In this document: positions 8,799-32,925 of the stretch, in pieces
Layout of the letters: each line of letters starts with the position of its first letter
How positions within the stretch are numbered: position 1 is the stretch's first letter
NCBI GenBank assembly: GCA_017881025.1
Contig: JADGRJ010000010.1
Span: 1 to 35,881 of the forward strand
Reading direction: 5' to 3'
Origin: Rhizobacter sp.
Lineage (GTDB): Bacteria; Pseudomonadota; Gammaproteobacteria; Burkholderiales; Burkholderiaceae_C
Length of the DNA stretch: 35,881 nt
Made by a program: the position numbers and the translations under genes
Notes under the pieces: generated by a model
The model's input: only the letters and a program-made list of their open reading frames with translations
Database searches by the model: none
What the model was told of the DNA's origin: nothing

Positions 8799-9767
8799 TC
8801 AGGCCTTTGCGCTCGCCGTCAGGTTCTCGAGCTGCAGCTTCAGCCGCTCGCTGAAGCTGAGCTTCGTGTACTGCCGCTCGGTCTCGCGCGAAAGCTCCTT
8901 CTGCAGCGCGAACACGCTCTGCGGGCGCGACAGCGGATCGAGCGACATGCACCACTCGGTGACCTCGATCAGGTTGTCGCTGTAGACGTTTCGCAGGCGC
9001 GAGAGCGAGAGCGCGAGGCGGTCCTTCTCGATCCGCTGCGGCGCGTCGTTCGGCGGATAGCCCTGCATGCAGGCGTAGATGCAGGCGCCGATCGCGTAGA
9101 TGTCGGTCCACGGCCCGAGCGTGCCGTCGCGGCGGTACATCTCGGGCGCGGCGAAGCCCGGCGTGTACATCGGCCGGATGAAGTTGCCTTCCTTGCTCAG
9201 CACCTCGCGCGCGGCGCCGAAGTCGAGCAGGACGGCCTTGTTCTCGTTGGTGATGAAGATGTTCGCCGGCTTGATGTCCAGGTGCAGCATCTTGTGCTGG
9301 TGGACGATGCGCAGGCCGCGCAATATCTCGTCGAACAACGAACGAATCGTCGATTCTCGAAATACTTTGTCACGTTTGAGGTCGCGCGCGGTGACGATGA
9401 AATCCTGCAGGGTATCGCCCTGCAGGTAATTCATCACCATGTAGACGGTTTCGTTCTCGCGGAAGAAATTCAGCACCGAGACGACGCTCGTGTGCGATAT
9501 CTGGGCGAGCGATCGGCCTTCCTCGAAAAAGCTCTTCAGGCCGAGCCGGTAGAGCGGCTGCTTTTCAGGCTTGACACGGGGCGTCAGCTCGCCCGGCGAG
9601 CGCTCGGCGAGCGAGGACGGCAGATACTCCTTGAGAGCGACCAGCTTCCTCTCGCCGTCTTCGCAGAGGTAGACCACGCCGAATCCACCGGCCGCCAGTT
9701 TCTTGATGACCTGGTAGCCGCCCACGACCGTGCCGGATGGCAATGGCGCGGGCTTTGGCTTTGACAT
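8799..9767 (-). CDS. Hanks-type Ser/Thr protein kinase
   Basis: A 322-residue cytoplasmic kinase without a transmembrane helix or extracellular sensor. Visible landmarks are the glycine loop LAAGGFGVVY (24-33), the ATP lysine in VALKEY (Lys46), the catalytic loop HLDIKPANI (162-170, Asp164), LLDFGAAR (190-197), and PGFAAPEMY with DIYAIGACIY. The residue before the catalytic Asp is Leu rather than Arg, so this is a non-RD kinase. The C-terminal 50 residues are charged and helical. It forms a unit with the downstream PP2C gene. Its start is only 22 bp from the divergent yicC start. Confidence 0.92.
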   Translation of the reverse strand: MSKPKPAPLPSGTVVGGYQVIKKLAAGGFGVVYLCEDGERKLVALKEYLPSSLAERSPGELTPRVKPEKQPLYRLGLKSFFEEGRSLAQISHTSVVSVLNFFRENETVYMVMNYLQGDTLQDFIVTARDLKRDKVFRESTIRSLFDEILRGLRIVHQHKMLHLDIKPANIFITNENKAVLLDFGAAREVLSKEGNFIRPMYTPGFAAPEMYRRDGTLGPWTDIYAIGACIYACMQGYPPNDAPQRIEKDRLALSLSRLRNVYSDNLIEVTEWCMSLDPLSRPQSVFALQKELSRETERQYTKLSFSERLKLQLENLTASAKA

Positions 9768-9789
9768 AATCGATGGAAAATGGGAGCAA

Positions 9790-10737
9790 ATGCGCGTGGC
9801 AGTTTACAGCATGACCGGCTACGCGAATGCCTCGGCGAGTGCTCCGACAGCGCCTGCGGCAGCATTGCACGAAGCGTCGCGCGGCATGGCCGCGAAGGCC
9901 TCCCCGGCGCCCGCGCTCGCGGTCGAGATCCGCTCGGTCAACGGGCGCTTTCTCGACATCGCGATGCGCCTGCCCGACGAGTTGCGCGGCCTCGAGCCTG
10001 CGCTCAGGGCGATGCTCACGGCGCGCTTCAAGCGCGGCAAGATCGAGCTGCGCCTCGCCGGCACGGGCAGCGCCGAAGGCGCCGTTCCCGAGCCGACGCC
10101 CGAGCAGCTCGCCCACCTGGCGCGCGTCGACGCCGGCGTGCGCGAGCACCTGCCGCACGCGCGCGCGTTGTCGGTCCACGAGGCGCTGCACTGGTGCCGC
10201 AGCGCTCCCGAGGCGCAGCCCGAGCACGCCGTCCTCGAAGCCGCCGAGCTTTGCGTCGAGCGGCTTGCCGTGGCGCGCGCGCGCGAAGGCGAGCGGCTCG
10301 CCGCGGTGCTCGCCGAGCGCGTCGCCCACCTGCGCGCCCTCGCCGACGCGGCCGAGCCCCTCGTGCCCGGCGCCGTCAGCCGCATGCAGCAGCGCTTCCT
10401 CGAGCGCTGGAAGGAAGCGCTCGACAAGGCCGGCGCGGCGCAGTCGGTGGCGCGCGAGGCGATCGAGGAGCGCGCGCTCAACGAGGCCGCGGCGTACGCG
10501 ATCCGCATCGACGTCGCCGAAGAGCTGGCGCGGCTGCGCTCGCACCTCGACGAGATCGCGCGGCTGCTCGACAAGGGCGGCGAGATCGGCAAGCGCCTCG
10601 AGTTCATCATCCAGGAGCTGCTGCGCGAGGCCAACACGCTCGGCTCGAAATCGCCGTCGATCGAGATGACGGCGATCTCGGTCGACATGAAGGTCGCGAT
10701 CGAGCAGCTGCGCGAGCAGGTGCAGAACGTCGAGTAG
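9790..10737 (+). CDS. yicC: YicC family endoribonuclease
   Basis: A 315-residue YicC protein. It opens with MTGYA near the start and EIRSVNGRFLDIAMRLP, and ends with the DUF1732 block: LDEIARLLDKGGEIGKRL, then FIIQELLREANTLGSKS. E. coli YicC is an endoribonuclease that participates in decay of the RyhB small RNA. I chose the ATG at 9790, preceded by GGGAG; the ATG at 9811 (SMTGYA) is the alternative. A 30-residue Ala/Pro-rich insertion after MTGYA is not in the usual family sequence. Together with gmk, rpoZ and spoT downstream it belongs to a conserved neighbourhood, here interrupted by two metabolic genes. Confidence 0.92.
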   Translation: MRVAVYSMTGYANASASAPTAPAAALHEASRGMAAKASPAPALAVEIRSVNGRFLDIAMRLPDELRGLEPALRAMLTARFKRGKIELRLAGTGSAEGAVPEPTPEQLAHLARVDAGVREHLPHARALSVHEALHWCRSAPEAQPEHAVLEAAELCVERLAVARAREGERLAAVLAERVAHLRALADAAEPLVPGAVSRMQQRFLERWKEALDKAGAAQSVAREAIEERALNEAAAYAIRIDVAEELARLRSHLDEIARLLDKGGEIGKRLEFIIQELLREANTLGSKSPSIEMTAISVDMKVAIEQLREQVQNVE

Positions 10738-18103: not shown

Positions 18104-18215
18104 GTCGCATTTCCTCTGCTGGGTGAAACGGTGCAGCCTAGCCGCACGAACCGAAAAATGTTAAGCGTCGCGGTGCCCCTTGTCACGTAAGCTCTGCACC
18201 CATGAGGCCCACGCG

Positions 18216-19187
18216 ATGCTGAAGCGACGGCAGTTCGTCGAAGCCGTCTCAGGGTCCGTGCTGGCCGTAACGTGCGGCGGCGCGATCGCGCAGTCGCGCA
18301 AGATGCCGCGCGTCGGCATCCTGCTCTTCAACTCCCCGTCCTCGGAGCCCCTCGGCCCGCTGCTCGACGGTCTCAAAGAGGCCGGATACGTCGTCGACAG
18401 GACGCTGGCGGTCGACTACCGCTATGCCGAAGGCCGGCAGGAGCGCCTCCCCGCGCTCGCCGTCGAGCTGGTGCAGCTCAACCCCGATGTGATCTTCTTG
18501 GTGGGCGGCGACGTCGCGCCCTACGCCAAGGCCGCGACGACGACGATCCCGATCGTCGTCGTGGTCAGCAACGATCCCGTCAAGGCCGGGCTGGTGGCGA
18601 ACATCGGCAGGCCGGGCGGCAATGTCACCGGGATCACGCTGATCTACGACGAGCTCGCCGGCAAGACGCTCGGCTTCCTGAAGGAAGCGGCGCCTTCGAT
18701 GACGCGCGTCGCCGTCCTGTGGAATCCCGAGCATGCCGACCCGGAGTTCCAGGAGACCAAGCGCGCCGCCGACCTCCTGAAGGTCAGGCTCCAGTCGCTC
18801 GAGGTCCGTCGGCCGGAGGACTTCGTCGCGGCCTTCAAGGCCGCCCTCGCCGAGCGGGCCGAAGGGTTGGTGATCGTGTCGTCGAGGCTGATGTCGCGCG
18901 AGCGCCCACGCATCATCGAATTCGCGGCCAAGAACCAGATTCTGATCGCCGGCGGCTGGGGCGAGTGGACCCGGGACGGCGCCCTCTTGACCTATGGTCC
19001 GAACACCGTCGAGCTCATGCAGCGCGCGGCCGTCTTCATCACCAAGATCATCAAAGGGGCCCGACCCGCCGATCTGCCGATGGAGCGCCCGACGCGGTTC
19101 GAGCTGGTGATCAACCTCAACACCGCACGCACGTTCGGCCTGACGTTGCCGCCGAACCTCCTTGCGCGTGCCGACCGGGTCGTCTGA
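18216..19187 (+). CDS. ABC transporter substrate-binding protein (DUF534/TrpX-like)
   Basis: A 323-residue periplasmic binding protein of the PF04392 type. The signal region contains a twin-arginine-like LKRRQFVEAV with a likely cleavage after GGAIA near residue 26. The mature part shows RVGILLFNS, GRPGGNVTGIT and a C-terminal FELVINLNTARTFGLTLPP, the usual ending of this family. No permease or ATPase gene adjoins it, so it is an orphan, common in Burkholderiales and Bradyrhizobium. The ligand is unknown. I chose the ATG at 18216 since it puts the twin Arg at residues 4-5. It is the last gene before the tRNA-Arg fragment. Confidence 0.86.
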   Translation: MLKRRQFVEAVSGSVLAVTCGGAIAQSRKMPRVGILLFNSPSSEPLGPLLDGLKEAGYVVDRTLAVDYRYAEGRQERLPALAVELVQLNPDVIFLVGGDVAPYAKAATTTIPIVVVVSNDPVKAGLVANIGRPGGNVTGITLIYDELAGKTLGFLKEAAPSMTRVAVLWNPEHADPEFQETKRAADLLKVRLQSLEVRRPEDFVAAFKAALAERAEGLVIVSSRLMSRERPRIIEFAAKNQILIAGGWGEWTRDGALLTYGPNTVELMQRAAVFITKIIKGARPADLPMERPTRFELVINLNTARTFGLTLPPNLLARADRVV

Positions 19188-19422: not shown

Positions 19423-20697
19423 TCAGATGACCCCGTCTGCGTGCAACTGCGCGAAGCGGGTAGGCGCCATGCCGAGCCAGTCGACATAGACCTCCCGATT
19501 GTGCTGACCTAGCAACGGTGCATCGCCGGCCACGAGCGCAGGCGTTGCCGAAAGCTTCATCGGCGAGCCGAACACCTCGACCTCGATCCCGCCGACACCG
19601 ACGGGTACGAACATCTCACGCGCCCGCAAGTGCGGATCGCCAACCACCTCGTCGATCTTCTTGATCGGTGTCAGCGCGATCCGGTTGCCCGCCATGGCCT
19701 CGAGCTCCGCCTTGGTTCGCGGCAGGAACCAGCGATCGATGATCGGCTCGATGCGGCGCTTGTACGTCGCTTCGTCGAAGCGCTTCACCATGGTGTCGAT
19801 CTCCGGATCTTCGGCGAGCTCGGGTTCGCCGAAGATCGCGCAGGTTTCGCGCCAGAGCTTGTCGCTGTAGGAACCGAAGAACACGAAGCCGTCCTTGCAT
19901 GGAAACTGGCCGTACGGCCGCGCGAACGGATGGGCGCTGCCGAGCGGCGTGGCGACCGCACCGTTGACCGTGAAGTTGACGATCGCGCTTTCGGTCAGCG
20001 TGACGACCGAGTCCTGCTGCGAGATGTCGACTCTCTGGCCGACGCCGCTGCGTTCGACCTCGCGGAGCGCCGCGAGCGTGCCGATGGTCGCGTAGAACGA
20101 CGCCGCGAGGTCGCCGATGATGCTGCCGACCCGCACCGGCGGGCGGCCCGCCTCGCCGTTCATAGACCACAGTCCGCCTGCGGCCTGCGCCGTGCTGTCG
20201 AACGACGGCCGCGGCGAGTGCGGCCCGGTTTGGCCGAAGCCGCTGATCGCGGTGTAGATCAGGCGCGGGTTCGCGACCTGCAGCGTCGGCCAGCCGAGCC
20301 CCAGCTTGTCCATGGTGCCGGGCCGGAAGTTCTCGACGAAGACGTCGGCCTTGGCGATCATCTCGAGCAGCAGCGCCTTGCCGTCGGGATGCTTCAGGTC
20401 CAGGCTCACGCCGAGCTTGTGGCGGTTGTACTGCGCGAAATACGCGCTTCCGCCGGGAGCCGCGCCCGATTCCAGCGCAGCGCCAGGGCGCGCCGCGGCG
20501 CCGACGTGCGGCGGGAAGTCGCGCACGTAGTCCGGATCGTTCGGGTGCTCGACCTTGATCACGGTGGCTCCGAGGTCGGCCAGCATCATCGTGCAGTACG
20601 GCCCGGCGACGACGCGGCTGAGGTCGATCACGGTGATGCCGGCGAGCGGCAGCACGCGCCTGCCCTGGTCTGCTTCGGCCTGCCCTTCCTGCGCCAT
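19423..20697 (-). CDS. Class III CoA-transferase (CaiB/BaiF/Frc family)
   Basis: A 424-residue family III CoA-transferase, which moves CoA between carboxylic acids. It opens with LAGITVIDLSRVVAGPYCTMMLADLGATVIK-type sequence and continues with VENFRPGTMDKLGL and ISGFGQTGP. GDLAASFYA contains the Asp equivalent to the catalytic Asp of formyl-CoA transferase. Two ATGs lie six bases apart; I chose 20697 because GAGG is about 9 bases before it, and 20703 is the alternative. It is the last gene of the island cluster, 11 bp after the isomerase-like gene. It probably activates an organic acid of the pathway using a CoA-thioester donor. Confidence 0.92.
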   Translation of the reverse strand: MAQEGQAEADQGRRVLPLAGITVIDLSRVVAGPYCTMMLADLGATVIKVEHPNDPDYVRDFPPHVGAAARPGAALESGAAPGGSAYFAQYNRHKLGVSLDLKHPDGKALLLEMIAKADVFVENFRPGTMDKLGLGWPTLQVANPRLIYTAISGFGQTGPHSPRPSFDSTAQAAGGLWSMNGEAGRPPVRVGSIIGDLAASFYATIGTLAALREVERSGVGQRVDISQQDSVVTLTESAIVNFTVNGAVATPLGSAHPFARPYGQFPCKDGFVFFGSYSDKLWRETCAIFGEPELAEDPEIDTMVKRFDEATYKRRIEPIIDRWFLPRTKAELEAMAGNRIALTPIKKIDEVVGDPHLRAREMFVPVGVGGIEVEVFGSPMKLSATPALVAGDAPLLGQHNREVYVDWLGMAPTRFAQLHADGVI

Positions 20698-20708
20698 GTG
20701 CATCGCCC

Positions 20709-21365
20709 TCACCAGCCGCCGCGCGCGAGCCAGTCCTCGACCTGCTCGAGCCGGTCGGAGCCCCAGAACGGCTCGTCGTCCACGAACACGAAGGGCGAGC
20801 CGAAGACGCCGCGCTCGAGCGATGCCGCAACGGCAGCGCGGAGATCGGTGCGCGCCTCTTCGCTGTCGATGCCCTGCCGCAGGGCCGCGCCATCGAAGCC
20901 GAGCGCTCCGGCGGTGGCAGCGAGCTCGTCCGATGACGACAGGTCGCGACCGAGCCGCCAGTAGCGGTCGAATACCTCGTGCGCGAAGGCGCCTTCGTGC
21001 CCCGGGTGATGTCGTTTGACCCAGCAGAAGGCGCGTGCCGCGGGGCGCGGGTCCATCATCGGGTCGCTGACCTCGCGCGCCAGCGCGAGGCCGTGACGGC
21101 GCGCGTAGCGAGGGAGGTCGCGCCGGACGTAATCGCCCTTCAGCGGCGTTTCGAGCAGCGGCTTCAGGCCCATCACCTTCATCACGGCGACACCGAGCAG
21201 CATGCAGTGCCAGTTGACGCTGCGGCCGTGGCGCGCGGCGATCGCCTCGATGCGCAGGCTCGCGACGTAACCGTAACTGGAGATGAAATCGAAGTAGAAG
21301 TCGATCGGTGCGGCGCCCGGTGCGCCTGGGTTCGAGACTCGCGGCGGTTGCAGTTCGGCGGCCAT
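20709..21365 (-). CDS. DsbA-like oxidoreductase/2-hydroxychromene-2-carboxylate isomerase family
   Basis: A 218-residue cytoplasmic protein of the DsbA/kappa-GST superfamily. The opening FYFDFISSYGYVASLRIE matches HCCA isomerases (FYFDFxSPYxY), where the Ser replaces the redox Cys of DsbA. The C-terminus GVFGSPFVFVDDEPFWGSDRL, here with the usual cis-Pro in GSP, is typical. HCCA isomerase acts with glutathione in naphthalene breakdown, but many family members occur in other catabolic clusters with unknown substrate. It lies 17 bp after the ABC ATPase and before the CoA-transferase. Confidence 0.86.
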   Translation of the reverse strand: MAAELQPPRVSNPGAPGAAPIDFYFDFISSYGYVASLRIEAIAARHGRSVNWHCMLLGVAVMKVMGLKPLLETPLKGDYVRRDLPRYARRHGLALAREVSDPMMDPRPAARAFCWVKRHHPGHEGAFAHEVFDRYWRLGRDLSSSDELAATAGALGFDGAALRQGIDSEEARTDLRAAVAASLERGVFGSPFVFVDDEPFWGSDRLEQVEDWLARGGW

Positions 21366-21382: not shown

Positions 21383-22900
21383 TCAGTGGATCGCCGCGTA
21401 CATGATCTTCTCTTCGGTGGCCTCGAGCGCGGAGTACTCCTCAACCACCTTGCCCATCCGCTGGACCAGGATCCGGTCCGAGAGCGCCATGATCTCGGGC
21501 AGGTACGACGAGATCACGACCACCGCCTTGCCCTCGTCCGCCAGCCGATTGATCAGCTGATGGATCTCGGTGATCGCGCCGACGTCGACGCCGCGCGTCG
21601 GCTCGTCGAAGATGATGATCTCGGGCTCCTGAACGAGCGATTTGGCGATCACGAGCTTTTGCTGGTTGCCACCGGAAAGCTCGATCGCCTTGACCTCCTC
21701 GCCGATGGCGCGGATGTTTAGGCGCTTGATCCAGTGCGCACCGACCTCGGCAGCCTCCTTCCTGGACACCAGCTTGCGCTTGCCGCGCAGCTTGGCGAGG
21801 AGACCCAGGTAGACGTTGCCGGCGATCGACTGGGTCTCGAAGAAGCCTTCGATCTTGCGGTCCTCGGTGACGTAGACGATGCCGTCGCGCACCGCCGAAG
21901 CCGGCACGAAGTAGCGCACCGGGCGGTCGTGCAGCAGGACCTCGCCGCCGTGCATGAAGTCGCGCTTGATGACGCCGGCGACGACTTTGAAGGTCTCGGT
22001 CCGCCCCGAGCCGACCAGCCCGAACACCCCCGTGATCTGGCCCGCGAACACCGACAGCGAGTTGTTCTTCACCATCGCCGCCATGCGCAGGTTCTGCACC
22101 GAGAGGACGCGCTTGCCCTGCGGCCGCACGCTGGTCTTGCGCTGGCCGTAGAGCGTCTGCGACAGGTCGCGGCCGACCATCGCCTGGACGATCCGGGCGC
22201 GGTCGAAATTCACCTTGTCGTCGGTCACGACGTGCTTGCCGTCGCGCAGGATCGTGATCCGGTCGGAGACGAGGAGCGCCTCCTCGAGCGCGTGCGAGAT
22301 GAAGATCACCGAGACGCCGCGCGCCTTCAGGTTGTAGACCAGGTCGAAGAAGTACTTCTTCTCCTCGGGCGTCAGGCTCGCGGTCGGCTCGTCGAAGATG
22401 ATGACCTTGGCGTTGTGCAGCACGGCGCGCGCGATCTCGACCATCTGCTTCTTGGCCGCGCCGAGGAGGCTCACGACCGCCGTCGGGTCGACGTCGAACT
22501 GGAGCGACTGCAGGAACTGCTGCGCCGCGATGTAGATGCCGCGCAGGCGATTGAAGAACTTCTCCTGGCCGAGGAAGAGGTTCTGCGCGACCGTCATCGT
22601 CGGCACCAGGCTCGTCTCCTGGAACACCATCGCCACGCCCAGGTGCAAGGCCTCGTTCGGCGTGCGCGGGTTGACTTCCTTGCCGTCGACCAGCATCTGG
22701 CCCGACGTCAGGTTCACGACCCCGGCCATCACCTTCGTCAGCGTCGACTTGCCGGCGCCGTTCTCGCCGACGATGGCGTGGATCTCTCCCGTGCGCAGCG
22801 CGAAGTCCACGGAGTCGATCGCCGGCACACCGGCGTACTTCTTGGTCGCCTGGCGCAGCTCGAGGATGGTCGGCGTGACGACCTGCGGGTTCGGGCTCAC
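21383..22900 (-). CDS. Ribose-type ABC importer ATPase, double domain (RbsA/XylG-like)
   Basis: A 505-residue protein with two ABC cassettes in one chain, as in RbsA and XylG. The first has Walker A GENGAGKST and Walker B VIIFDEPTAS, but its signature reads LLGAAKKQMVEIARA instead of LSxGxQQ. The second has the family's degenerate Walker A GLVGSGRTE, signature LSGGNQQKLVIAKS and Walker B IIIFDEPTRG. So, as in related importers, ATP hydrolysis is asymmetric. It should energise the permeases at 24012-26177 and 27271-28242. The start is a GTG overlapping the propeller gene stop (GTGA). Confidence 0.93.
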   Translation of the reverse strand: MSPNPQVVTPTILELRQATKKYAGVPAIDSVDFALRTGEIHAIVGENGAGKSTLTKVMAGVVNLTSGQMLVDGKEVNPRTPNEALHLGVAMVFQETSLVPTMTVAQNLFLGQEKFFNRLRGIYIAAQQFLQSLQFDVDPTAVVSLLGAAKKQMVEIARAVLHNAKVIIFDEPTASLTPEEKKYFFDLVYNLKARGVSVIFISHALEEALLVSDRITILRDGKHVVTDDKVNFDRARIVQAMVGRDLSQTLYGQRKTSVRPQGKRVLSVQNLRMAAMVKNNSLSVFAGQITGVFGLVGSGRTETFKVVAGVIKRDFMHGGEVLLHDRPVRYFVPASAVRDGIVYVTEDRKIEGFFETQSIAGNVYLGLLAKLRGKRKLVSRKEAAEVGAHWIKRLNIRAIGEEVKAIELSGGNQQKLVIAKSLVQEPEIIIFDEPTRGVDVGAITEIHQLINRLADEGKAVVVISSYLPEIMALSDRILVQRMGKVVEEYSALEATEEKIMYAAIH

Positions 22901-24015
22901 GACCGCAGGCTCCGTTCCGCATCGGCAACCGACAGACGCAGGATCCGGCGACAACCCTTGGCGAGCACGAACAGGTCGCCCCGGCATTCGACCGCGGCGA
23001 CGACGCCGTGGTGCTTGCCGTCGAAACGGCTGTGCAGCGAATAGCGCACCAGGCCTTCATCGGTGAGGCGGATGACGAGGCCGTACGAGCGTGGCGGCGC
23101 CCACGGCTTGACGACGCCCATCATCTTGAGTTGCGCCCCCTGCATCGGCTCGAGGAAGGTGTTGCCCGAGTTCAGCGCCGGCGCGATCCAGTGCTGCGGC
23201 TCGATCTCGGCGAGCATGCGCTCGCGATAGGCGTGCTCGCGGAGCACGAACTCGACCAGCTGCGTTCGCAAGGTGAAGCAGGTGAGCCAGAAGCCGCCGC
23301 CCGCGGCAGGCGCGATGCGCGAGGGGTAGCCCGGCAGCGAGTCGGTCACCGCGCGCCCGCGCTTGCCGTCGGCGACGGCGCGCACGCGGTGCGACCAGCT
23401 CTCGCTGACCCAGACTTCCGCGCCGGCCGCGCACGCGCCGAACGCGCAGGCGAGCCCGCTCGCGAGCACGCGCGCGGAGCCGTCCGCGGCTTGCATCTCG
23501 AACACGCGGCCGCTCCGACCGAGCCCCATCAGGTCGTGGCGCCAGTGGTCCACCGGATGCTCGAGCGAGCCGTCGGTGACGAGGAGGAGGCGGCCGTCTT
23601 CGGCGACGGAGATCGCATTGACCGCATTGAGCTTCGACCCGCCGACCGCGTCCCATCTGCGGCCGTCGTGCGCGCCGCCGACGATGCGAACCTCGCGGCC
23701 GCCGAGCGCGACCGCGAGGCCCCCGCCAGGAAGGCAGGCGAGCGCAGTCACGGGCTGGTCGAAGCGCTGGACTTCGCTCGACGTCTTGCCGCTCCCCGCA
23801 GTCGACACGTCGTAGCGCAGCACCGTGACGCCGTCGGCGACATACAGCGCGTCGCCGTCCGTGGCCAGGTCTTCCGGTGCTTCCAGCGCAGCGAACGGCG
23901 GCGCTTGTTCGAGGATGTTGTTCGACTTCAGCGCGCCGTCGAACACCGGCACCGTGATCGACGCGTCGCCGCGGCCGAGGAGCCGCTCCTTCCAGTCGAG
24001 GATCGCGCCGATCAC
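22897..24015 (-). CDS. SMP-30/strictosidine-synthase-like beta-propeller protein
   Basis: A 372-residue protein with repeated propeller blades: APEDLATDGDALYVAD, LNAVNAISVAEDGRLLLVTD, GRVFEMQAADGSARVLASGL, VWVSESWSHRVRAV and LPGYPSRIAPAAGGGFWLT. These resemble the strictosidine-synthase/SMP-30 superfamily, whose members hydrolyse lactones or phosphotriesters in a six-bladed fold using a divalent metal. There is no signal peptide, so it should be cytoplasmic. It starts at a GTG overlapping the permease-propeller fusion stop (GTGA) and overlaps the ATPase start in the same way, placing it inside the transporter operon. It is a divergent paralogue of the propeller fused to the permease. Activity is inferred. 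Confidence 0.82.
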   Translation of the reverse strand: MIGAILDWKERLLGRGDASITVPVFDGALKSNNILEQAPPFAALEAPEDLATDGDALYVADGVTVLRYDVSTAGSGKTSSEVQRFDQPVTALACLPGGGLAVALGGREVRIVGGAHDGRRWDAVGGSKLNAVNAISVAEDGRLLLVTDGSLEHPVDHWRHDLMGLGRSGRVFEMQAADGSARVLASGLACAFGACAAGAEVWVSESWSHRVRAVADGKRGRAVTDSLPGYPSRIAPAAGGGFWLTCFTLRTQLVEFVLREHAYRERMLAEIEPQHWIAPALNSGNTFLEPMQGAQLKMMGVVKPWAPPRSYGLVIRLTDEGLVRYSLHSRFDGKHHGVVAAVECRGDLFVLAKGCRRILRLSVADAERSLRS

Positions 24016-26177
24016 GCAGCCTTCCCCCAGCGCCGGTCGTACTGGATGAAATCGGGGTCGGCGCCTTCGAGCTTGAGCCGGCCGACGCGGTTGTTCATGA
24101 TGCCGCCGAGGTACAGGTAGCCGCGGTGCTCGCGCATGGAGGTGATCATCGGGTGGTTCTGGCCGCCGAGGTCCCACATCGTCTCGAGAACCTCGCCCTT
24201 CTCGTTGAACTTCAGCACGCAGCCGGTGTTGATGTTCGGGAACAGCCACTCGTCGCGCGCCACCCGCTTGGCCATCCGCTTGCGAAAGCCCGGCATCTTC
24301 CACGCCAGGTCGAGCGCCGGGCAGCGCATGCCGACCAGCGACATCCAGTAGTTGCCGTCCGAAGAGTTGTTGATGTTGTCGGGAAAGCCGGGAAGGTTCT
24401 CGAGCACGATCTCGGTCTTGCCTTTCTTCGGGCCGTCGAACCAGTGGCGCTTGACGCTGCAGCCCCAGGTCTCGGCGAACAGGAACGAGATGCCGTCGCT
24501 GGCGATGCACACGCCGTTCGGGAACTTCAGGTCGCGAATGACGGTGTGCGTCTTGCCGGTGTTGGTGTCGAAGCAGATGATGCGGCCGTTGCCGCGCGCC
24601 TCGAGCCCGTCGGTCGCCCACTCGTGCATCTCGAAGCGCACCGTCGCTTCCGAGAAGAAGATGCGGCCGTCGTCGGTGATGTCGAGGTCGTCGGCCAGCC
24701 GCAGGCGGCTGTCGTCGTTGATCGACGTGTAGCTGCGGTTGGTCTCGTCGGTCGCCTTCTCGACCTTGCGCTCGGGCGTGACGCGGTACAGGCCCATGCC
24801 GCCGATGCAGACGTAGAGGTTGTCCTGGCGGTCGAACGCCATGCCGAGCGGCGTGCCGCCGATGTGCGCGAAGACCTCCATCCGCTCGTAGTCGGGCGCG
24901 AGGAAACGGATGATGTCGCCATGGCGCGAGCCGGCGTAGAGGTTGTCGTAGCGATCGAGGATCACGTCCTCGGGGCCTTCTATGCGGCCGAGGCCGATCG
25001 GCGTCGCCGGCCGCAGCCGGTCGTTCAGCGCCCAGGCGGTGCCGCAATCGGGCGCCGTCGACGGCAGCGGCGGCATGCCGTGGTACGTCGGGCTGACGTA
25101 GACCTTGTTGACGATCCGGTGCCTGTTCTTCAGCCAGCGGATGTCGATCGTCGCGGCGAGCAACAGGATGCCGGCGAGCACCATCCGGTTGTAGCCGCCG
25201 TGCAGCGACATCGTCGTCAGGCCGTTGATGATCAGGAGCACGATCAGGGTGCCGACGAGCGCCTTCATCACCGAGCCCTTGCCGCCGCCGAGGCTGATGC
25301 CGCCGAGCACCGCCGCCGTGAGCACGGTGATCTCGAGGCTGACGCCGATGTCGCCGCCCGCAGTCGCCAGGCGCGACGCGAAGAAGACGCCGCCGAGAGC
25401 GGTGAGCACGCCGCTCGCGACGTAGCAGAGGGCGACCGTGCGACGCACGGCGATGCCGGTGTTGTAGGCCGATCGACGCGAGCCGCCGATCGCGGTGACG
25501 TGCCAGCCCGGGCGCAGCCGCGTCAGGAAGATGTGGCCGAAGATCGCGACCGCGGCGTAGACGAAGACGACCGTCGGCACACCGAGCCAGTCGCCGTTGC
25601 CGATGAAGTCCCACGCCTTCGATTCCGGGAAGCCGCCGGCGATCGCGGTGGCGTAGTCGGCGGTGAGGAGGTCGTAGAGCGCTCGGTAGATGATCAGCGT
25701 GATGAGCGTCGTCAGGAAGGCGCGCAGGCGGAAGTAGCCGATCAGCACGCCGTTCAGCGCGCCGAGCGCGGCGCCGCACAGCAGCGTGACGACGACGGCC
25801 GGCGCCACCGCCCACTTCAGCACGTGCATCAGGTAGAGCGCGCAGAAGTTCGTCAACGCGAACATCGAGCCGACCGAGAGATCGATGCCGCCGACGATCA
25901 TCACCAGCGCCATGCCGAGCACGATGAAGCCGATCTCGCCGGCCTGCCGCCCGGTGTCGGCGAGCGCCGCCGGCGAGAGGAAGTTCGGGATCGCGCGCGA
26001 CAGCGCGAACGCGACCAGTACCAGCACGATCACCGGGATCGCGGTCTCCATCCAGCGCTTGGCAAGGATCTCGCCGAGCGCGTGGTCGGGCCAGTACCGG
26101 TAGCGCCAGCGCGTCAGCGTGTCGGTCCAGCGCTCCTCGACGGGCGCCGGCGCGAGCGATGCGGCCGTGCGATCCAC
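24012..26177 (-). CDS. ABC permease fused to strictosidine-synthase/SMP-30-like propeller
   Basis: One 721-residue frame with two parts. Residues 1-350 are a complete ribose-type permease with about eight to ten membrane helices, including MIVGGIDLSVGSMFA (near 93-107) and VLGGISLGGGKGSV. After a 45-residue linker, residues 396-721 form a beta-propeller domain: GPEDVILDRYDNLYAGS, LADDLDITDDGRIFFSEA, DLKFPNGVCIASDG, then GKTEIVLENLPGFPDNI. These are strictosidine-synthase (PF03088)-type blades. RbsC-type permeases have a cytoplasmic C-terminus, so the propeller should hang at the channel exit inside the cell. No stop or frameshift separates the parts. The GTG start directly follows the binding-protein stop (no gap). 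Confidence 0.88.
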   Translation of the reverse strand: MDRTAASLAPAPVEERWTDTLTRWRYRYWPDHALGEILAKRWMETAIPVIVLVLVAFALSRAIPNFLSPAALADTGRQAGEIGFIVLGMALVMIVGGIDLSVGSMFALTNFCALYLMHVLKWAVAPAVVVTLLCGAALGALNGVLIGYFRLRAFLTTLITLIIYRALYDLLTADYATAIAGGFPESKAWDFIGNGDWLGVPTVVFVYAAVAIFGHIFLTRLRPGWHVTAIGGSRRSAYNTGIAVRRTVALCYVASGVLTALGGVFFASRLATAGGDIGVSLEITVLTAAVLGGISLGGGKGSVMKALVGTLIVLLIINGLTTMSLHGGYNRMVLAGILLLAATIDIRWLKNRHRIVNKVYVSPTYHGMPPLPSTAPDCGTAWALNDRLRPATPIGLGRIEGPEDVILDRYDNLYAGSRHGDIIRFLAPDYERMEVFAHIGGTPLGMAFDRQDNLYVCIGGMGLYRVTPERKVEKATDETNRSYTSINDDSRLRLADDLDITDDGRIFFSEATVRFEMHEWATDGLEARGNGRIICFDTNTGKTHTVIRDLKFPNGVCIASDGISFLFAETWGCSVKRHWFDGPKKGKTEIVLENLPGFPDNINNSSDGNYWMSLVGMRCPALDLAWKMPGFRKRMAKRVARDEWLFPNINTGCVLKFNEKGEVLETMWDLGGQNHPMITSMREHRGYLYLGGIMNNRVGRLKLEGADPDFIQYDRRWGKAA

Positions 26178-27206
26178 TCAGGTCTTGCCCAGCTTCCAGC
26201 AGGTGCCTTCGTTGCCGGCGTTGGCCTTCGTGATCGGGATCAGCGTGGTGTAGATCGATCCCTTCGCGGTTCCCGTCTTGCCCGGGTTCTGCAGCAGCCA
26301 CTTGATCGACGCTGCCATGTTGCTCGCCTGCGTCGGCACGTCGTAGCTCAGATCGAGGTCGAACGCGCCCGACTTGACCTGGTCGCACGCGCCCTTCTGC
26401 TCGCCGCCGCCGGACGTCGCGAGGAAGACCTTGCCCGTGAGGCCGGCCTCCTTGATCGCCGCCGCGGTGCCCGAGTCCATGCCGTCCCAGAAGCCGACGA
26501 TGCCGCACAGGTCCGGATGCTGCTTGAGCACGGTCTGCGTGATGCCCTTGGCCTTCGCCGCGTCCCAATCCGCCGCCTGGCTCGAGACGACCTTGATGTC
26601 GGGGTGCTTGGCGAGCACGTTCTCGACGCCCTTCAGCGTGTAGGCGCTGGCTGCCGCCGACAGCGCGCCCTGCACGACCGCGATCTTGTTCGACTTGCCC
26701 TTGCAGGCGTCGACCACGGCGTTGGTCGCCTTCTCGCCGACCTCGATCCAGTCGGCGCCAACGTAGACGACCGAGGGATACGCCGAGCGCATGTTGATCT
26801 GCACGATCTGGATGCCCTGCGACTCCGCCTTCTGCAGCAGCTTCGCGTAGGTCTGCACGTCGGGGTTGTGGACGACGATGACGTCGGGCTTCTCGCTGAT
26901 CAGCGTCGTCACGGCCTGGGCGCCGGCGTTGGTGTTCCAGTTCGGATCGCGGACGACGATCTTGACGCCGAGCGGCTCGAGCTCCTTCTTCAGGCCCTCG
27001 AGCCAGCCCTGCGCCAGGTCGAACCCGAGCGCCACCGGGACATAGGCGACCGTCTTGCCCGCGAGCGTCTTGCGATAGGCGTCGCGGAACGGCTCGTCGA
27101 TGCCCTTGCCCTGGGCGAACGCGAGCTGCCCGAAGGCCATGCCGGCGAGCAGCGTCAGCGCCGCGAGGCCGGTGCGAAGGCGTGTGGAGGTGGGGTGCAG
27201 CGTCAT
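26178..27206 (-). CDS. Periplasmic sugar-type substrate-binding protein (RbsB-like)
   Basis: A 342-residue binding protein with a clear signal peptide (hydrophobic core LAALTLLAGMAFG, cleavage likely after residue 31, LAFA/QG). The mature part follows the ribose-binding (peripla_BP_4) pattern: VAYVPVALGFDLAQGWLEGL, TLISEKPDVIVVHNPD, KIAVVQGALSAA, DLCGIVGFWDGMDSGTAAAIKEAG. An insertion around GGGEQKGACDQVKSG contains a Cys pair partner (Cys near 231, 278 and 337). It delivers the ligand to the two permeases. The ligand cannot be named; such proteins also bind polyols, purines and lactone-like compounds. It lies 64 bp after the first permease. Confidence 0.92.
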   Translation of the reverse strand: MTLHPTSTRLRTGLAALTLLAGMAFGQLAFAQGKGIDEPFRDAYRKTLAGKTVAYVPVALGFDLAQGWLEGLKKELEPLGVKIVVRDPNWNTNAGAQAVTTLISEKPDVIVVHNPDVQTYAKLLQKAESQGIQIVQINMRSAYPSVVYVGADWIEVGEKATNAVVDACKGKSNKIAVVQGALSAAASAYTLKGVENVLAKHPDIKVVSSQAADWDAAKAKGITQTVLKQHPDLCGIVGFWDGMDSGTAAAIKEAGLTGKVFLATSGGGEQKGACDQVKSGAFDLDLSYDVPTQASNMAASIKWLLQNPGKTGTAKGSIYTTLIPITKANAGNEGTCWKLGKT

Positions 27207-27270
27207 GCGTGTCTCCTGTCTTGGTGGAAGGGAGGCGGCACGGGGCCGCCGTCGGGATTGCGAGCGGTCG

Positions 27271-28242
27271 TCAGATGTCTCCCTGCTGCGCGGTCTCTTC
27301 GTTGCGGGGATTGATGAACGAATCGATCAGGATGGCGATCAGCAGGATCACGCCCTTGACCAGGTTCTGCGCCGAGTACGAGACGTCGAGGATCGTCATG
27401 CCGTTGAGCAGCGTGCCGATCAGGAGCGTGCCGATGACGACGTTGACGACGCCGCCGCGCCCGCCCGACAGGCCAATGCCGCCGAGCACGACGACGAGGA
27501 TCACGTCGTAGATCAGGGTCGAGTTGTAGATCCGCGTCGGCATGCTGTTGACCGACGCCGCCATCACCATGCCGGCGAACGCGCCGATCAGCGCCGCGAG
27601 CACGTACTGCAGCACGATCACGGGCCGCGTCGGGATGCCGGTGACGCGCGCACCGAACGGGTTGTCGCCGATCGCGTAGACGTAGGTGCCGAGGCGCGTC
27701 CGACGCAGGAAGAACGACACCGCCGCGGCGACGACGCCGAACATGATCACCGGCATCGGCACGCCGAGCAGCGTGCCGCGGCCGACCCACGCGAAGCGGT
27801 CGAGCTGCGGGCTCCACTGGACGATGTCGAGGCGGAAGAACGCGACCTGGCCGAGGCCGGCGAGGAAGAGCCCCGAGGCGAGCGTCGTGAAGAGCGAGGG
27901 CACCTCGGCGTAGGCGACCAGCCAGCCGTTGACCAGGCCGAACGCGAGCGCGAGCGCGAGCGCGGCGAGAAACGCCATCGGCGCCGAATGACCGTCCTGG
28001 ACCAGCTGCAGCACCAGGCCGGCCGGCACCGCGAGCACCGCGACCATCGAGATGTCGATGCCGCGGCCGATCACGACGATCGCCATGCCGAGGCCGAGGA
28101 TGCCGAGGATGGCCACGTTCTGCAGCAGCCCGAGCAGGTTCCCGGCGGTGAGGAAGCCCGTCAGGAACAGGCTGAAGCCGGCGAACATCAGCACGAAGAT
28201 CGTGAAGACGATCGTCTGCTGCGAGATCTGCGGCAGCTTCAT
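27271..28242 (-). CDS. ABC transporter permease, ribose/xylose type (RbsC-like)
   Basis: A 323-residue integral membrane protein with about eight to ten helices. The family motifs are GMAIVVIGRGIDISMVAVLA, AYAEVPSLFTTLASGLF, YAIGDNPFGARVTGI and VVVLGGIGLSGGRGGVVNVVIG. It has no fused domain, so with the permease at 24012-26177 it would make a heterodimeric channel carrying the propeller on one side only. The ATG overlaps the TetR stop (ATGA), so the regulator and transporter are translationally linked. Confidence 0.94.
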   Translation of the reverse strand: MKLPQISQQTIVFTIFVLMFAGFSLFLTGFLTAGNLLGLLQNVAILGILGLGMAIVVIGRGIDISMVAVLAVPAGLVLQLVQDGHSAPMAFLAALALALAFGLVNGWLVAYAEVPSLFTTLASGLFLAGLGQVAFFRLDIVQWSPQLDRFAWVGRGTLLGVPMPVIMFGVVAAAVSFFLRRTRLGTYVYAIGDNPFGARVTGIPTRPVIVLQYVLAALIGAFAGMVMAASVNSMPTRIYNSTLIYDVILVVVLGGIGLSGGRGGVVNVVIGTLLIGTLLNGMTILDVSYSAQNLVKGVILLIAILIDSFINPRNEETAQQGDI

Positions 28243-28892
28243 CGCGGGGTCGCGGCGGCGCGGCGCCCGCGCGGCGCCAGGCCGTTCATCAGGATCGCGA
28301 TGCTTTGCTGCGCGACGTCCGCCGCGCCGAGCTCCCCCTCGGGGTCATACCATCGGCCGATCCAGCTCAGCGCACCGGCCAGCGTGAACGCGGCGAGCTT
28401 CGGATCGCAGCGGGCGATCGAGCCTTCGGCGAAGCCCTGCTCGATGAGCGCGCGGAACTCATGGTCGAGCTCGGCCTTCAGCCGGCGCAGCTGCTTGCGC
28501 GCCGCCGGCGCGAGCGGGTCTTCGCCGACGCGGATCAGGCACATGCCGAAATCGCAGGTGACGATCAGCGCGTATTCGTGCATCGCCGCCTCCAGCTTGT
28601 CGACGGCGGTGCCGCCCGACGCAGCGGCGCCGGCGATCGCCGAGCGCAGCAGCTCGAGGCCGAGCCGGACGCACTCGAACAGGATCTCTTCCTTGTTGTG
28701 GATGTAGTAGTAGAGCGTCGGCTTGGTGACCTGCAGCCGCTCGGCGACCATGGCGAGCGAGGTCGCGTGATAGCCATGCTCGTTGAACAGCTGCGCCGCC
28801 GCGCGCAGCACCGCATCGCGCTTGACCGCGCGCTCCTGCCCGCGGTCGAGCGGATGGGCCCACGGCGAAGCGAGGACAGCGGCAGCGGGCAT
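28239..28892 (-). CDS. TetR/AcrR family transcriptional regulator
   Basis: A 217-residue repressor-type regulator. The helix-turn-helix lies at about residues 26-70: RDAVLRAAAQLFNEHGYHAT, SLAMVAERLQVTKPTLYYYI, then HNKEEIL. The C-terminal ligand domain resembles that of regulators next to acyl-CoA dehydrogenase clusters. It is the first gene of the transporter operon and overlaps the permease by four bases. An AGGAG ribosome site lies five bases before the ATG. A candidate operator and promoter are found 67-121 bp upstream. It probably represses its own operon and responds to an acyl-CoA or the imported compound. Confidence 0.92.
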   Translation of the reverse strand: MPAAAVLASPWAHPLDRGQERAVKRDAVLRAAAQLFNEHGYHATSLAMVAERLQVTKPTLYYYIHNKEEILFECVRLGLELLRSAIAGAAASGGTAVDKLEAAMHEYALIVTCDFGMCLIRVGEDPLAPAARKQLRRLKAELDHEFRALIEQGFAEGSIARCDPKLAAFTLAGALSWIGRWYDPEGELGAADVAQQSIAILMNGLAPRGRRAAATPR

Positions 28893-28958
28893 CAGGTCTC
28901 CTGGCGAGCCGGGTCCGCACGAGGGCGCGGCGAGGCTTCTTGCTGTTCGAGAAGCGCG

Positions 28959-28974
28959 GTTACTCGTCGGTAAC
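28959..28974. promoter_or_regulatory. Candidate TetR operator
   Basis: Inverted repeat GTTAC-N6-GTAAC, 67 bp before the TetR start, flanked by CGCG on both sides. Size and symmetry suit a TetR dimer, and the site lies just downstream of the putative promoter, a good position for repression. Confidence 0.4.
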
Positions 28975-28984
28975 GCGAAGTGGG

Positions 28985-29013
28985 ATAGTGGTCGCCGGGC
29001 TGGCCTCGCGCAA
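28985..29013 (-). promoter_or_regulatory. Candidate sigma-70 promoter for the TetR-transporter operon
   Basis: On the minus strand: -35 TTGCGC (29008-29013), 17-bp spacer, -10 CACTAT (28985-28990). It lies in the 143-bp gap after the acyl-CoA synthetase gene. Matches to consensus are moderate. A 7-bp stem (28995-29001 with 29013-29019) overlaps it. Confidence 0.35.
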
Positions 29014-29035
29014 GCCCGGAGCGCCAAGGATTTCC

Positions 29036-30658
29036 CTAGGTCACCGGGAGCCGGCGCAGCTCGCGGCGCATGATCTTGCCGGTAGCCGTGAGCGGCAGCG
29101 ACTCGACGAACACGACGTCGCGCGGGCACTCATGGCGCGCCAGGCGCGTTCGCACCGAGTCTCGGATCGCCTCGGCGAGCTCGGCGCTCGCCGTGTTGCC
29201 GGGGCGCAGCAGCACGAAGGCGCGGATCGCCTCGGTCTTCACCGGATCGGGAACGCCGATCACCGCCGACATCGCCACCGCGGGGTGACCGTTCAGCGCA
29301 TCCTCGATCTCGCCCGGGCCGATCCGGTAGCCGGCGCTCGTGATGACGTCGTCGGCGCGGCTCATGTACCAGTAGTAGCCATCCTCGTCGCAGCGGCCGA
29401 GGTCGCCGGTGAGCAACCAGTCGCCGGCGAACTTGTCGCGCGTCGCCTCGGGCTTGTTCCAGTACTCGAGCAGCATCACCGGGTCGGGGCGGCGGAACGC
29501 GATGTTGCCGACCGTGTCCGCCGACAGCGGATGCCCGTGGTCGTCGACGATCGCGGCGACGTGGCCGGGCAGCGCCTTGCCGAGCGAGCCGGGCTTGGGC
29601 GCCAGCACCTGCGTGCAGTTGCCGAGGACGATGTTGCACTCGGTCTGGCCGAACACTTCGTTGATCTCGATGCCGAGCGCGCCGCGCGCCCATTCGAGCG
29701 TCTCGCGTCCGACCGATTCGCCGCCGCTGATGACCGAACGCAGCGCGACGCCGTGGCGACGCAGTGGATCGGGGACGACGCTGAGCCGGCGCAGCATCGT
29801 CGGCGTCAGCAGGCTGATGCGCACGCGGTGCTTGCCCATCAGATGGAACGCCTCTTCCGGGTCGAAGCTCGTGTTGCGATAGGTCAGCACCGGCAGGCCG
29901 CAGAACCACGCCGGCATCAGCACGTCCATCAGCCCCGCAAGCCAAGACCAGTCGGCCGGCGACCACATCACGTCCCCCGGTTGCGGCAGAAAGTCGTAGA
30001 CGAGCTCGAGGCCCGGCATGTGGCCGAGCATCGAGCGATGGCCTTGCAAGGTTCCTTTCGGCTGGCCGGTGGTGCCCGACGTGTAGTTGATGAAGGCGGG
30101 CGTGTCGGGTGTCAGCGCGAGCGTTTCGAACTCGTCCGTGGCGCGCGCGAGCTCGGCCCAGAAGTCGAGCGTGCCGGCGCCCTTGCCGTCGACCAGCATC
30201 ACGTGCGCGAGGTGGGGCGCCTGCTCGCGCACGGCGGCGACGTTCGGCCAATGCGCGGCATCGGTGATCAGCAGCTTCGCGCCGCTGTCGCGCAGCCGGT
30301 AGGCGAGCGCGTCGGTGCCGAACAGGAGCGAGGTCGGCACCGAGATCAGCCCCGCCTTCCAGCAGGCGACGTGCGCGACCGCCGTCGCCGGGTCCTGGCC
30401 GAGATAGATCAGCACGCGATCGCCCTGGACGAGACCGAGATGGCGCAGCGTGTTCGCGCACTGGTTGGCGAGGCACCGGATCTGGCGGAAGCTGTAGTGT
30501 GCGACGCTGCCGTCGCCGCGCTCGTGGATCAACGCGGTGCGAGCCGGGTCGGCGGCATGACGATCGCAGACATCGCGCGCGATGTTGTAGCGCTCGGGCA
30601 GATTCCAGCGGAACGCGCGGTGGATCTCGTCGAAGGTGGCGGCGCGGGTGATCAGCAT
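29036..30658 (-). CDS. Acyl-CoA synthetase (AMP-forming), medium-chain/benzoate-CoA-ligase type
   Basis: A 540-residue ANL-superfamily ligase that activates a carboxylic acid to its CoA thioester through an acyl-adenylate. Core motifs: INYTSGTTGQPKGT (P-loop), EVFGQTECN, GDWLLTGDLGRCDEDGYYW, then RADDVITSAGYRIGPGEIE, and the catalytic-lysine ending LPLTATGKIMRREL. The N-terminus (NLPERYNIARDVCDRHA) is typical of medium-chain acyl-CoA or acetyl-CoA-like synthetases. It lies six bases after the acyl-CoA dehydrogenase, so the product probably feeds that enzyme and the APH-like kinase upstream. The acid is not identifiable. Confidence 0.93.
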   Translation of the reverse strand: MLITRAATFDEIHRAFRWNLPERYNIARDVCDRHAADPARTALIHERGDGSVAHYSFRQIRCLANQCANTLRHLGLVQGDRVLIYLGQDPATAVAHVACWKAGLISVPTSLLFGTDALAYRLRDSGAKLLITDAAHWPNVAAVREQAPHLAHVMLVDGKGAGTLDFWAELARATDEFETLALTPDTPAFINYTSGTTGQPKGTLQGHRSMLGHMPGLELVYDFLPQPGDVMWSPADWSWLAGLMDVLMPAWFCGLPVLTYRNTSFDPEEAFHLMGKHRVRISLLTPTMLRRLSVVPDPLRRHGVALRSVISGGESVGRETLEWARGALGIEINEVFGQTECNIVLGNCTQVLAPKPGSLGKALPGHVAAIVDDHGHPLSADTVGNIAFRRPDPVMLLEYWNKPEATRDKFAGDWLLTGDLGRCDEDGYYWYMSRADDVITSAGYRIGPGEIEDALNGHPAVAMSAVIGVPDPVKTEAIRAFVLLRPGNTASAELAEAIRDSVRTRLARHECPRDVVFVESLPLTATGKIMRRELRRLPVT

Positions 30659-30664
30659 GCAGCC

Positions 30665-31836
<1,172 letters not shown>

Positions 31837-31840
<4 letters not shown>

Positions 31841-32925
31841 CGAGACCCTCCGTTGGTGATCGGCAGATCGTGGACGATCGCAGCGGCGCGCGCAAACATC
31901 GGCTCGATCGCGAGGGCGAATCGTTCCCAGGTGTCGTCGGGGTGCCGACCGCTGCGATGCAAGTAGACGTTCAGGCACGAGATCGCGCCCAGGCGGTAGC
32001 CGGCATAGGCCTGATACCACGGCAGATCCTCGCAAGACTCGCCCATCGCCTGCTCGTAGCGCGCTGCCACCTCTGAGGGTGTCATGGGGCAGACGGGCCG
32101 CCACTCGTCCGCCCAGCTGTCGCGGTCGGCGAGCATCATCATCCAGCCGGCATCGATGCGGCGGCTGCCGATCGATGCGAGCTCCCAGTCGATCAGGCCG
32201 GTCAGGCGGCCGCCGTCGAAGAGGGCGTTGCCGGGCTGGCAGTCGCCGTGCACGAGGCCGACCGGCGCACCGTCCGGCCGGGTGGCGATCAAGGCCTCGC
32301 GCAGGGCGCGGCCGCGTTCCATCCAGTCGACGCGCGGCGACTTGGCGAGGACGGCATCCCAGCGGACAACCTCGTCGACGAGCGCGCGTGGCGCCTCCCA
32401 GTCCGGCAGATGTCGGCGCCAGTCGAAACGGTGAAACGCGGCCATCGAGTCGATCGTCTGCTCGTAAAGCGGTCTCACTGCCGCGGCAGACCTGTCGAAC
32501 GTCGGATCAGGTTGCCAGACGAAAAACGGCAGGCCGGCCAGGCGGTCCATCACGATGAACGGCGTCCCGAACCACGATTCGCCGGGGTCGGCATACGGTA
32601 CATCGGGCGCAGGCAAGCCTGTGGCGTGAAGCGCGCGCAGCAACGGCGCCTGCTTGTAGACATCGGTATTGCCCGATCGGCGCACGCCGGGCGGCGCGAG
32701 CTTCAAGACCAGGCCGCGGCGCCGGCCCGGCTCGGGCCCGAGCAGGTCAAAGCCGAAGGTCAAGCCGGCATGTCCGACCTCCATCACACGAAAGGCTTCG
32801 ACCGTGCTTCCCACACCGCACGTGGCACTGACGAATCCTTGGAGGCTGCGCGCGACGGAGCCGACGTCGAGAGGTAAACGAGTGCGTGGCGACGTGTGTC
32901 TCCTGATCTGATCCAAGGCCAGCAT
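31837..32925 (-). CDS. Aminoglycoside-phosphotransferase-like small-molecule kinase
   Basis: A 362-residue APH-fold kinase. The ATP lysine segment is LVLKLAPP. The catalytic Brenner loop is LVHGDCQPGNALFDGG with Asp and Asn in place, followed by the metal-binding LIDWELASIG. Members fused or adjacent to acyl-CoA dehydrogenases (human ACAD10/11, LvaA) phosphorylate 4-hydroxyacyl-CoA, and the four-base overlap with the ACAD gene points the same way; antibiotic resistance is unlikely. The start is uncertain: ATG 32925 has no ribosome site, and an AGGAG lies inside codons 8-9 with no standard start codon just after it. Family homology begins near residue 18. Confidence 0.85.

Follow-up and report, generated by a model that had tools for sequence, protein, structure and literature searches.

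A single gene on the minus strand of a 35,881-nucleotide stretch of Rhizobacter sp. DNA (contig JADGRJ010000010.1; the whole stretch is here called the window) encodes an ATP-binding cassette (ABC) importer permease of the RbsC type joined to a strictosidine-synthase-like β-propeller. This permease::propeller fusion is real and conserved, with the frame unbroken in 47/47 proteins of different sequence, the window's own included (685 to 733 codons as cut, many of the starts being set by the match and not by a gene call). The reading favored here, for which confidence is evenly balanced, is that the tethered propeller would hydrolyze an incoming ester or lactone at the importer. The features of the fused gene were as follows.

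24012..26177, minus strand: fused gene, permease::strictosidine-synthase-like propeller, 721 amino acids (aa), GTG start, TGA stop
25128..26177, minus strand: permease part of the fused gene, residues 1-350, ten predicted spans (from AlphaFold2 helices combined by eye with hydropathy peaks), Pfam match at 78-341
24015..25037, minus strand: propeller part of the fused gene, residues 381-721, Pfam SSL_N, SGL, and Str_synth, metal-site positions E403, D496, N554, D600, and N601
24012..24015, minus strand: GTGA overlap between the fused gene and the next gene, the TGA stop overlapping a GTG start

An earlier note, made from the letters of the DNA, had described one 721-residue frame joining a permease to a propeller. 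The frame exists on the minus strand, a detail absent from the note, and the GTGA overlap that the note reported is likewise present. At its other end, the fused gene abuts the stop of the binding-protein gene (TGA/GTG). All Pfam matches of the fused protein exceeded their cut-offs, namely, BPD_transp_2 at residues 78 to 341 (107.6 bits versus a cut-off of 26.8), SSL_N at 381 to 425, SGL at 427 to 617, and Str_synth at 496 to 582 (59.5 bits versus 25). The NCBIfam sugar-permease equivalogs all remained below cut-off, the best being ribose with 155.3 bits versus 398; since the protein fell far under every listed equivalog cut-off, no assignment to a ribose, arabinose, or allose system was made. 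The possibility that a sequencing or assembly error conceals a stop between permease and propeller is negligible. Such an artifact was ruled out by the 46 other unbroken proteins, of which 12 come from plasmid records with "complete sequence" in the title, and the note's view that the annotation is no artifact was borne out. The database search for the same domain order, which the note had proposed as a check, yielded 46 further distinct fusion proteins spanning alpha-, beta-, and gammaproteobacteria, with bacteria from soil and from the sea among them. The 47-protein set was made up of the window protein, 18 proteins from a scan of species genomes, 12 from plasmids, and 16 from further genomes; L035, truncated by a contig end, was excluded, and plasmid records H7, H9, and H13 (of 15) were not among the 12 used.

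Foldseek and VIA-align matches supported a six-bladed propeller fold for the C-terminal part. The best structural match was TGW6 (PDB 8kg3; Z 36.4, 278 residues, 2.3 Å, 27% identity). Further matches were strictosidine synthases (Z 33 to 35), DFPase (about 31), the bacterial propeller lactonase RPA3624 (30), and PON1 (29); PON1, Drp35, RPA3624, and DFPase, with Z values of about 29 to 31, shared 14 to 19% sequence identity with the fused propeller. "Strictosidine-synthase-like" is therefore a better label than SMP-30 proper. Strictosidine synthase activity itself is unlikely. Glu309, which we take to be the catalytic residue in strictosidine synthase numbering, aligned with T679, invariant in nine of nine aligned proteins, and Pictet-Spengler chemistry is unlikely because this position is Thr.

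In the available text of the TGW6 report, the protein is described as a rice indole-3-acetic acid-glucose hydrolase, and E59, N167, N226, and N272 are given as Ca2+-chelating positions of its relatives (PMC10958001). In a profile alignment, these residues corresponded to E403, D496, N554, and N601 of the fused propeller. D600, next to N601, corresponds to a ligand position of PON1 and DFPase. E403, N554, D600, and N601 were invariant in 47/47 proteins, while position 496 was always either Asp (36) or Asn (11). The metal ligands, which the earlier note had expected to be kept, are thus retained, a judgment based on alignment and not on model geometry. Given these conserved ligand positions, the fused propeller is predicted to be metal-competent.

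The fused gene belongs to a five-gene set that makes up a complete ribose-class (RbsC/RbsA) ABC importer. Its other four members were the following.

27271..28242, minus strand: first RbsC-type permease (323 aa), partner of the fused permease, Pfam BPD_transp_2, E 4e-30
26178..27206, minus strand: periplasmic sugar-type substrate-binding protein (342 aa), Pfam Peripla_BP_4, E 3.7e-42, no NCBIfam equivalog cut-off reached
22897..24015, minus strand: second, free propeller (372 aa), a paralog of the fused propeller with most metal-site residues lost
21383..22987, minus strand: RbsA-type double ATPase, Pfam ABC_tran in two stretches; the listed start is that of the longest open reading frame, the true start probably being at about 22882

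The gene order common to the loci was first permease, binding protein, permease::propeller, second propeller, and ATPase. The binding protein and the second propeller were present at 47/47 loci, and the first permease and the ATPase were present at 46/47 each, missing only from L028 and L022, respectively, where the sequence ends before the gene. The last four bases at the fused-gene stop were ATGA or GTGA in 42/47, and the second-propeller frame was able to start at the stop overlap in 41/47. An open frame of 1062 codons runs opposite the operon (window 24126-27314, plus strand) and was taken as a shadow frame of high-G+C coding sequence.

Two points go beyond the earlier note: proteins with this fusion form a conserved family that RefSeq already contains, and a second, degenerate propeller is encoded by the adjacent gene. 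No Pfam or NCBIfam model matched this protein (22897-24015), and its counterpart at L024 gave one marginal NHL repeat. Its relationship to the fused propeller was detected with hhalign (probability 99.8, E 7e-30), and its AlphaFold2 model had a propeller fold (predicted local distance difference test [pLDDT] 85.8, predicted template modeling score [pTM] 0.86) with strictosidine synthases as the nearest folds. A profile search of the PDB placed designed Pizza propellers on top and TGW6 and strictosidine synthases lower. The position of D600 was occupied by Ser, Gly, or Ala in 47/47 second propellers, and that of N601 was occupied by Arg (46) or Lys (1). The N554 position was Asn in only 3/47, position 496 was Thr in 33 and Asn in 12, and position 403 was acidic in 45. 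A tree was built from 34 propellers: the 15 fused ones grouped together with support of 97/95, the 11 second propellers formed their own group with support of 100/100 and mostly longer end branches, and the 8 free ones formed a third. To judge from the alignments, every one of these importers pairs a propeller that retains the metal-site residues with another that lacks most of them. The fusion, the gene order, the conserved ligand positions, and their loss in the partner are direct features of the sequences. Within the second propeller, a loop at residues about 286 to 312 (QGG, KPWAP, SYGL) was strongly conserved and was modeled with low confidence in the monomer; this suggests that another subunit makes contact there.

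The AlphaFold2 model of the entire fused protein was built from a 45-row alignment (pLDDT 86, pTM 0.64). A5, L041, L042, L065, L082, and L086 were left out of the structure alignment for a stop in the stretch, and L049, L054, L067, L084, and L095 were left out by choice. The structure-search matches listed for the fused protein were propellers, a listing that does not cover the permease fold, and no solved RbsC-type permease for comparison was found by sequence search. The permease part had ten plausible spans in the model and in hydropathy, counting a broken one near residues 281 to 300. The mean number of Lys plus Arg residues over the 47 proteins was 4.5 in the loop at 220 to 244 and 4.7 at residues 345 to 362, versus 0.1 in the loop at 181 to 202. 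By the positive-inside rule, with a positive segment after the last membrane helix, and by the even number of predicted spans, the propeller would be cytoplasmic.

A sister importer provided a further indication. At L137 (7933-10473, minus strand; genome G084, from the same order as the window host), the second permease is fused at its C terminus to the double ATPase, giving a protein of 846 aa. This permease was 43% identical to the fused permease of the window, and the first permease and binding protein stand in the same order as in the window. Because the L137 permease carries an ATPase at the same end, the C terminus of this permease clade is expected to be cytoplasmic. It is therefore very likely that the propeller is on the cytoplasmic side, and the cytoplasmic permease C terminus assumed in the earlier note is in agreement with all three indications. 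The charge pattern, the number of spans, and the ATPase-fused sister permease together led to rejection of a periplasmic propeller. No propeller match was found at L137 within the 20 kb examined, which would make the propellers an add-on to the core importer.

To describe the distribution of the fusion, plasmids, species genomes, and a sample of the phylum were searched. A tblastn search of plasmids gave 15 records with one place covering at least 80% of the fused protein, at 50 to 59% identity, from Rhizobiaceae, Rhodobacterales, Paraburkholderia, and Pantoea. The annotation was SMP-30/gluconolactonase/LRE family protein in 10 of these and permease in 2, with none in the remaining 3. The species-genome scan added at least 18 full-length fusions among 80 loci kept, and the fusion was found in named cultured bacteria, e.g., Shinella, Mesorhizobium, and Bradyrhizobium. 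One putative gluconolactonase gene in Bradyrhizobium is mentioned in the accessible part of a published report (PMC6759348), from which its membership in the fused family could not be told. In the phylum sample, the full fusion was detected at E ≤ 1e-120 in 11 of 398 genomes, counting that of the window; two candidates were scored per genome in this search, which missed two fusions found with a permease-only query. That query, with at most five candidates scored per genome in the same 398, recovered 18 clade relatives at E ≤ 1e-45, of which 17 were propeller-fused, 1 was ATPase-fused, and none stood alone. A full-length fusion was present in 3 among 100 relatives, own included, and in none of 5 other congeneric genomes, several being incomplete. 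This patchy spread may be read as horizontal movement. Among 62 nonfused loci (61 from the species-genome scan plus L137), a propeller lay beside transporter genes only in L064, where the ATPase match was weak (24 to 26%) and about 8 kb off.

These data bear on whether the tether serves only co-expression or co-localization, the propeller being an ordinary cytosolic lactonase or esterase that would be equally good cut free, without channeling. The stretch from the last helix to the propeller, residues 361 to 390, has no regular structure in the AlphaFold2 model, this model does not fix the domain placement, and the fused gene and the next gene are already mostly coupled via 4-base overlaps; these observations are compatible with a mere tether. 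However, 17 of the 18 clade permeases in the phylum sample were propeller-fused and none was free. In addition, permease-part and propeller-part identities co-varied over the 47 proteins (r 0.89, 1081 pairs), although shared descent alone also yields such co-variation. A tether with no role in transport is unlikely, and hydrolysis at the importer remains the preferred reading.

The surroundings of the operon were inspected for clues to the substrate. The neighboring genes of the window were the following.

28239..29129, minus strand: TetR-type regulator upstream of the transporter, Pfam TetR_N and TetR_C_24
29036..32925, minus strand: upstream catabolic genes for an AMP-binding acyl-coenzyme A (CoA) ligase, an acyl-CoA dehydrogenase, and an APH-type phosphotransferase, from Pfam
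20709-21365, minus strand: DsbA-like thioredoxin-fold protein, downstream, from Pfam
19423-20628, minus strand: class III CoA-transferase, downstream, from Pfam
18180-19187, plus strand: gene for a separate ABC_sub_bind solute-binding protein, on the opposite strand and outside the importer operon

The APH, acyl-CoA dehydrogenase, and ligase genes may echo the levulinate/4-hydroxy-acid (Lva) pathway, which serves as a lead only. Neighbors at the other loci were counted with one query per gene at E ≤ 1e-12, with half of the query covered, over about 9 to 12 kb of flanking sequence as far as the record extended. Matches to ligase, dehydrogenase, and APH all at one locus were found only in Sulfitobacter L013 of the 46 others, at 27 to 40% identity; at this locus, a DUF7064/DUF7065 protein (8871-9878, plus strand) lies directly upstream of the importer. 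The Comamonadaceae homolog L021 adjoins a DsbA-like protein and a CoA-transferase 66% and 73% identical, respectively, to those of the window, and the CoA-transferase of the window is 57% identical to that of L024. A carboxymuconolactone-decarboxylase-family gene was near the operon in 11/47 (L028, L029, L031, L016, L118, L119, L125, L128, L129, L130, and L136). Alcohol and aldehyde dehydrogenase genes were directly downstream in 3/47 by query, L116 and L117 had other annotated pairs of this kind, and the Pantoea locus had sugar-type catabolic genes instead.

A concrete clue came from a degradative 3-hydroxy-3-methylglutaryl-CoA (HMG-CoA) reductase beside three loci, L015, L024, and L126. In L024 (Mesorhizobium) and L126, the reductase, a class III CoA-transferase, and an enoyl-CoA hydratase are directly upstream, and an HMG-CoA lyase is downstream of the importer, on the opposite strand in L126; we take these genes to be a mevalonate degradation set. 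In Shinella HZN7 (L015), the reductase is directly upstream. Both the reductase and the lyase of L024 scored above the NCBIfam cut-off, as did the reductase of L015, and L126 has homologs of both enzymes. Because the reductase adjoins the importer at these three loci, and the lyase also at two, mevalonate and its relatives are a concrete guess for the substrate there. One common substrate was not obtained from the neighbors, as the flanking genes differ among the 47 loci. What the neighborhoods seem to share is a link to small acids or hydroxylated compounds, which would often feed into CoA metabolism.

Under the favored reading, the binding protein would deliver a small hydroxy-acid ester or lactone, and the two permeases would carry it across the membrane. 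The tethered propeller would then bind and hydrolyze the cargo beside the channel exit, possibly with the degenerate propeller acting as a subunit or lid, and the resulting acid would feed the CoA-thioester catabolism encoded nearby. We infer hydrolysis, substrate class, and coupling; hydrolysis at the channel exit is plausible. A more far-reaching version, doubtful but possible, is that of a covalent import-and-hydrolyze machine. Here the cargo would pass directly to the pair of active and degenerate propellers, and its cleavage would render import irreversible (vectorial trapping), making the system an ABC-importer counterpart of group translocation, with mevalonate-type cargo in some lineages.

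Several points weigh against hydrolysis at the importer. The AlphaFold2 model gives no firm placement of the propeller relative to the pore, and the sister importer at L137, presumably functional, is without either propeller. The HMG-CoA reductase is limited to 3/47 loci, and the neighboring catabolic genes vary widely. According to the available text of PMC13064465, mevalonolactone opens fast in water unaided, so that a lactonase would be less needed for this compound. Finally, the crystal of TGW6, the nearest solved relative, is reported to have shown no Ca2+ (PMC10958001), and metal use is therefore not readable from the residues alone.

Two of these points, the crystal without Ca2+ and the L137 importer lacking both propellers, as expected of an add-on regulator, also favor a regulatory role. 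The fused propeller would then bind the imported compound or its product and slow the importer (trans-inhibition), the degenerate propeller would aid gating, and the pocket would bind without catalysis. The occurrence of the second propeller at all 47 loci, never with the D600/N601 pair, similarly fits a binding or structural role. Trans-inhibition is carried out by C-terminal domains of some ABC importer ATPases. However, the known domains of this kind are on ATPases and not on permease C termini, and the whole metal set is strict in the fused copy and mostly lost in its partner, as is typical when an active enzyme is paired with a degenerate copy. A regulatory role is therefore rather unlikely, and hydrolysis by the tethered propeller is preferred.

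Each component family is a known one, and public databases already list the fused protein under an enzyme name, many of the fusion proteins being called "SMP-30/gluconolactonase/LRE family protein" in RefSeq. This name conceals a transporter subunit and needs qualifying. Among the paper titles listed, none pointed to the permease::propeller fusion or its operon; several of the lists showed 8 to 20 of up to 2,440 papers, from a collection with few subscription journals. The family is defined by a fixed five-gene order and by a pair of active-looking and degenerate propellers, and a transporter fused to a hydrolase-like domain would allow a direct test of whether cargo cleavage helps to drive or trap import.

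Compared with known systems, the importer resembles the RbsABC class of sugar importers in its permease family, binding-protein family, double ATPase, and operon logic but differs in that its two permeases are not alike and one of them bears a C-terminal propeller. The fused propeller has its aligned metal-site positions in common with TGW6, which, in contrast, is a free plant protein with N167 where 36/47 fused propellers have D496. Strictosidine synthase is alike in the Str_synth Pfam match and in fold, whereas the synthase shown in the alignment has Gly at the N554 and D600 positions, both of which are kept in the fused propeller. The propellers of paraoxonase, DFPase, and SMP-30 gluconolactonase share the six-bladed fold and the ligand positions but are distant in sequence, and the fused propeller is unlike them in being permease-linked and paired with a degenerate copy. 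A natural fusion of a propeller with an unrelated protein, as described in the available text of PMC12362111, is the Deinococcus Cu/Zn-superoxide dismutase fused to a β-propeller lactonase, in that case without a transporter.

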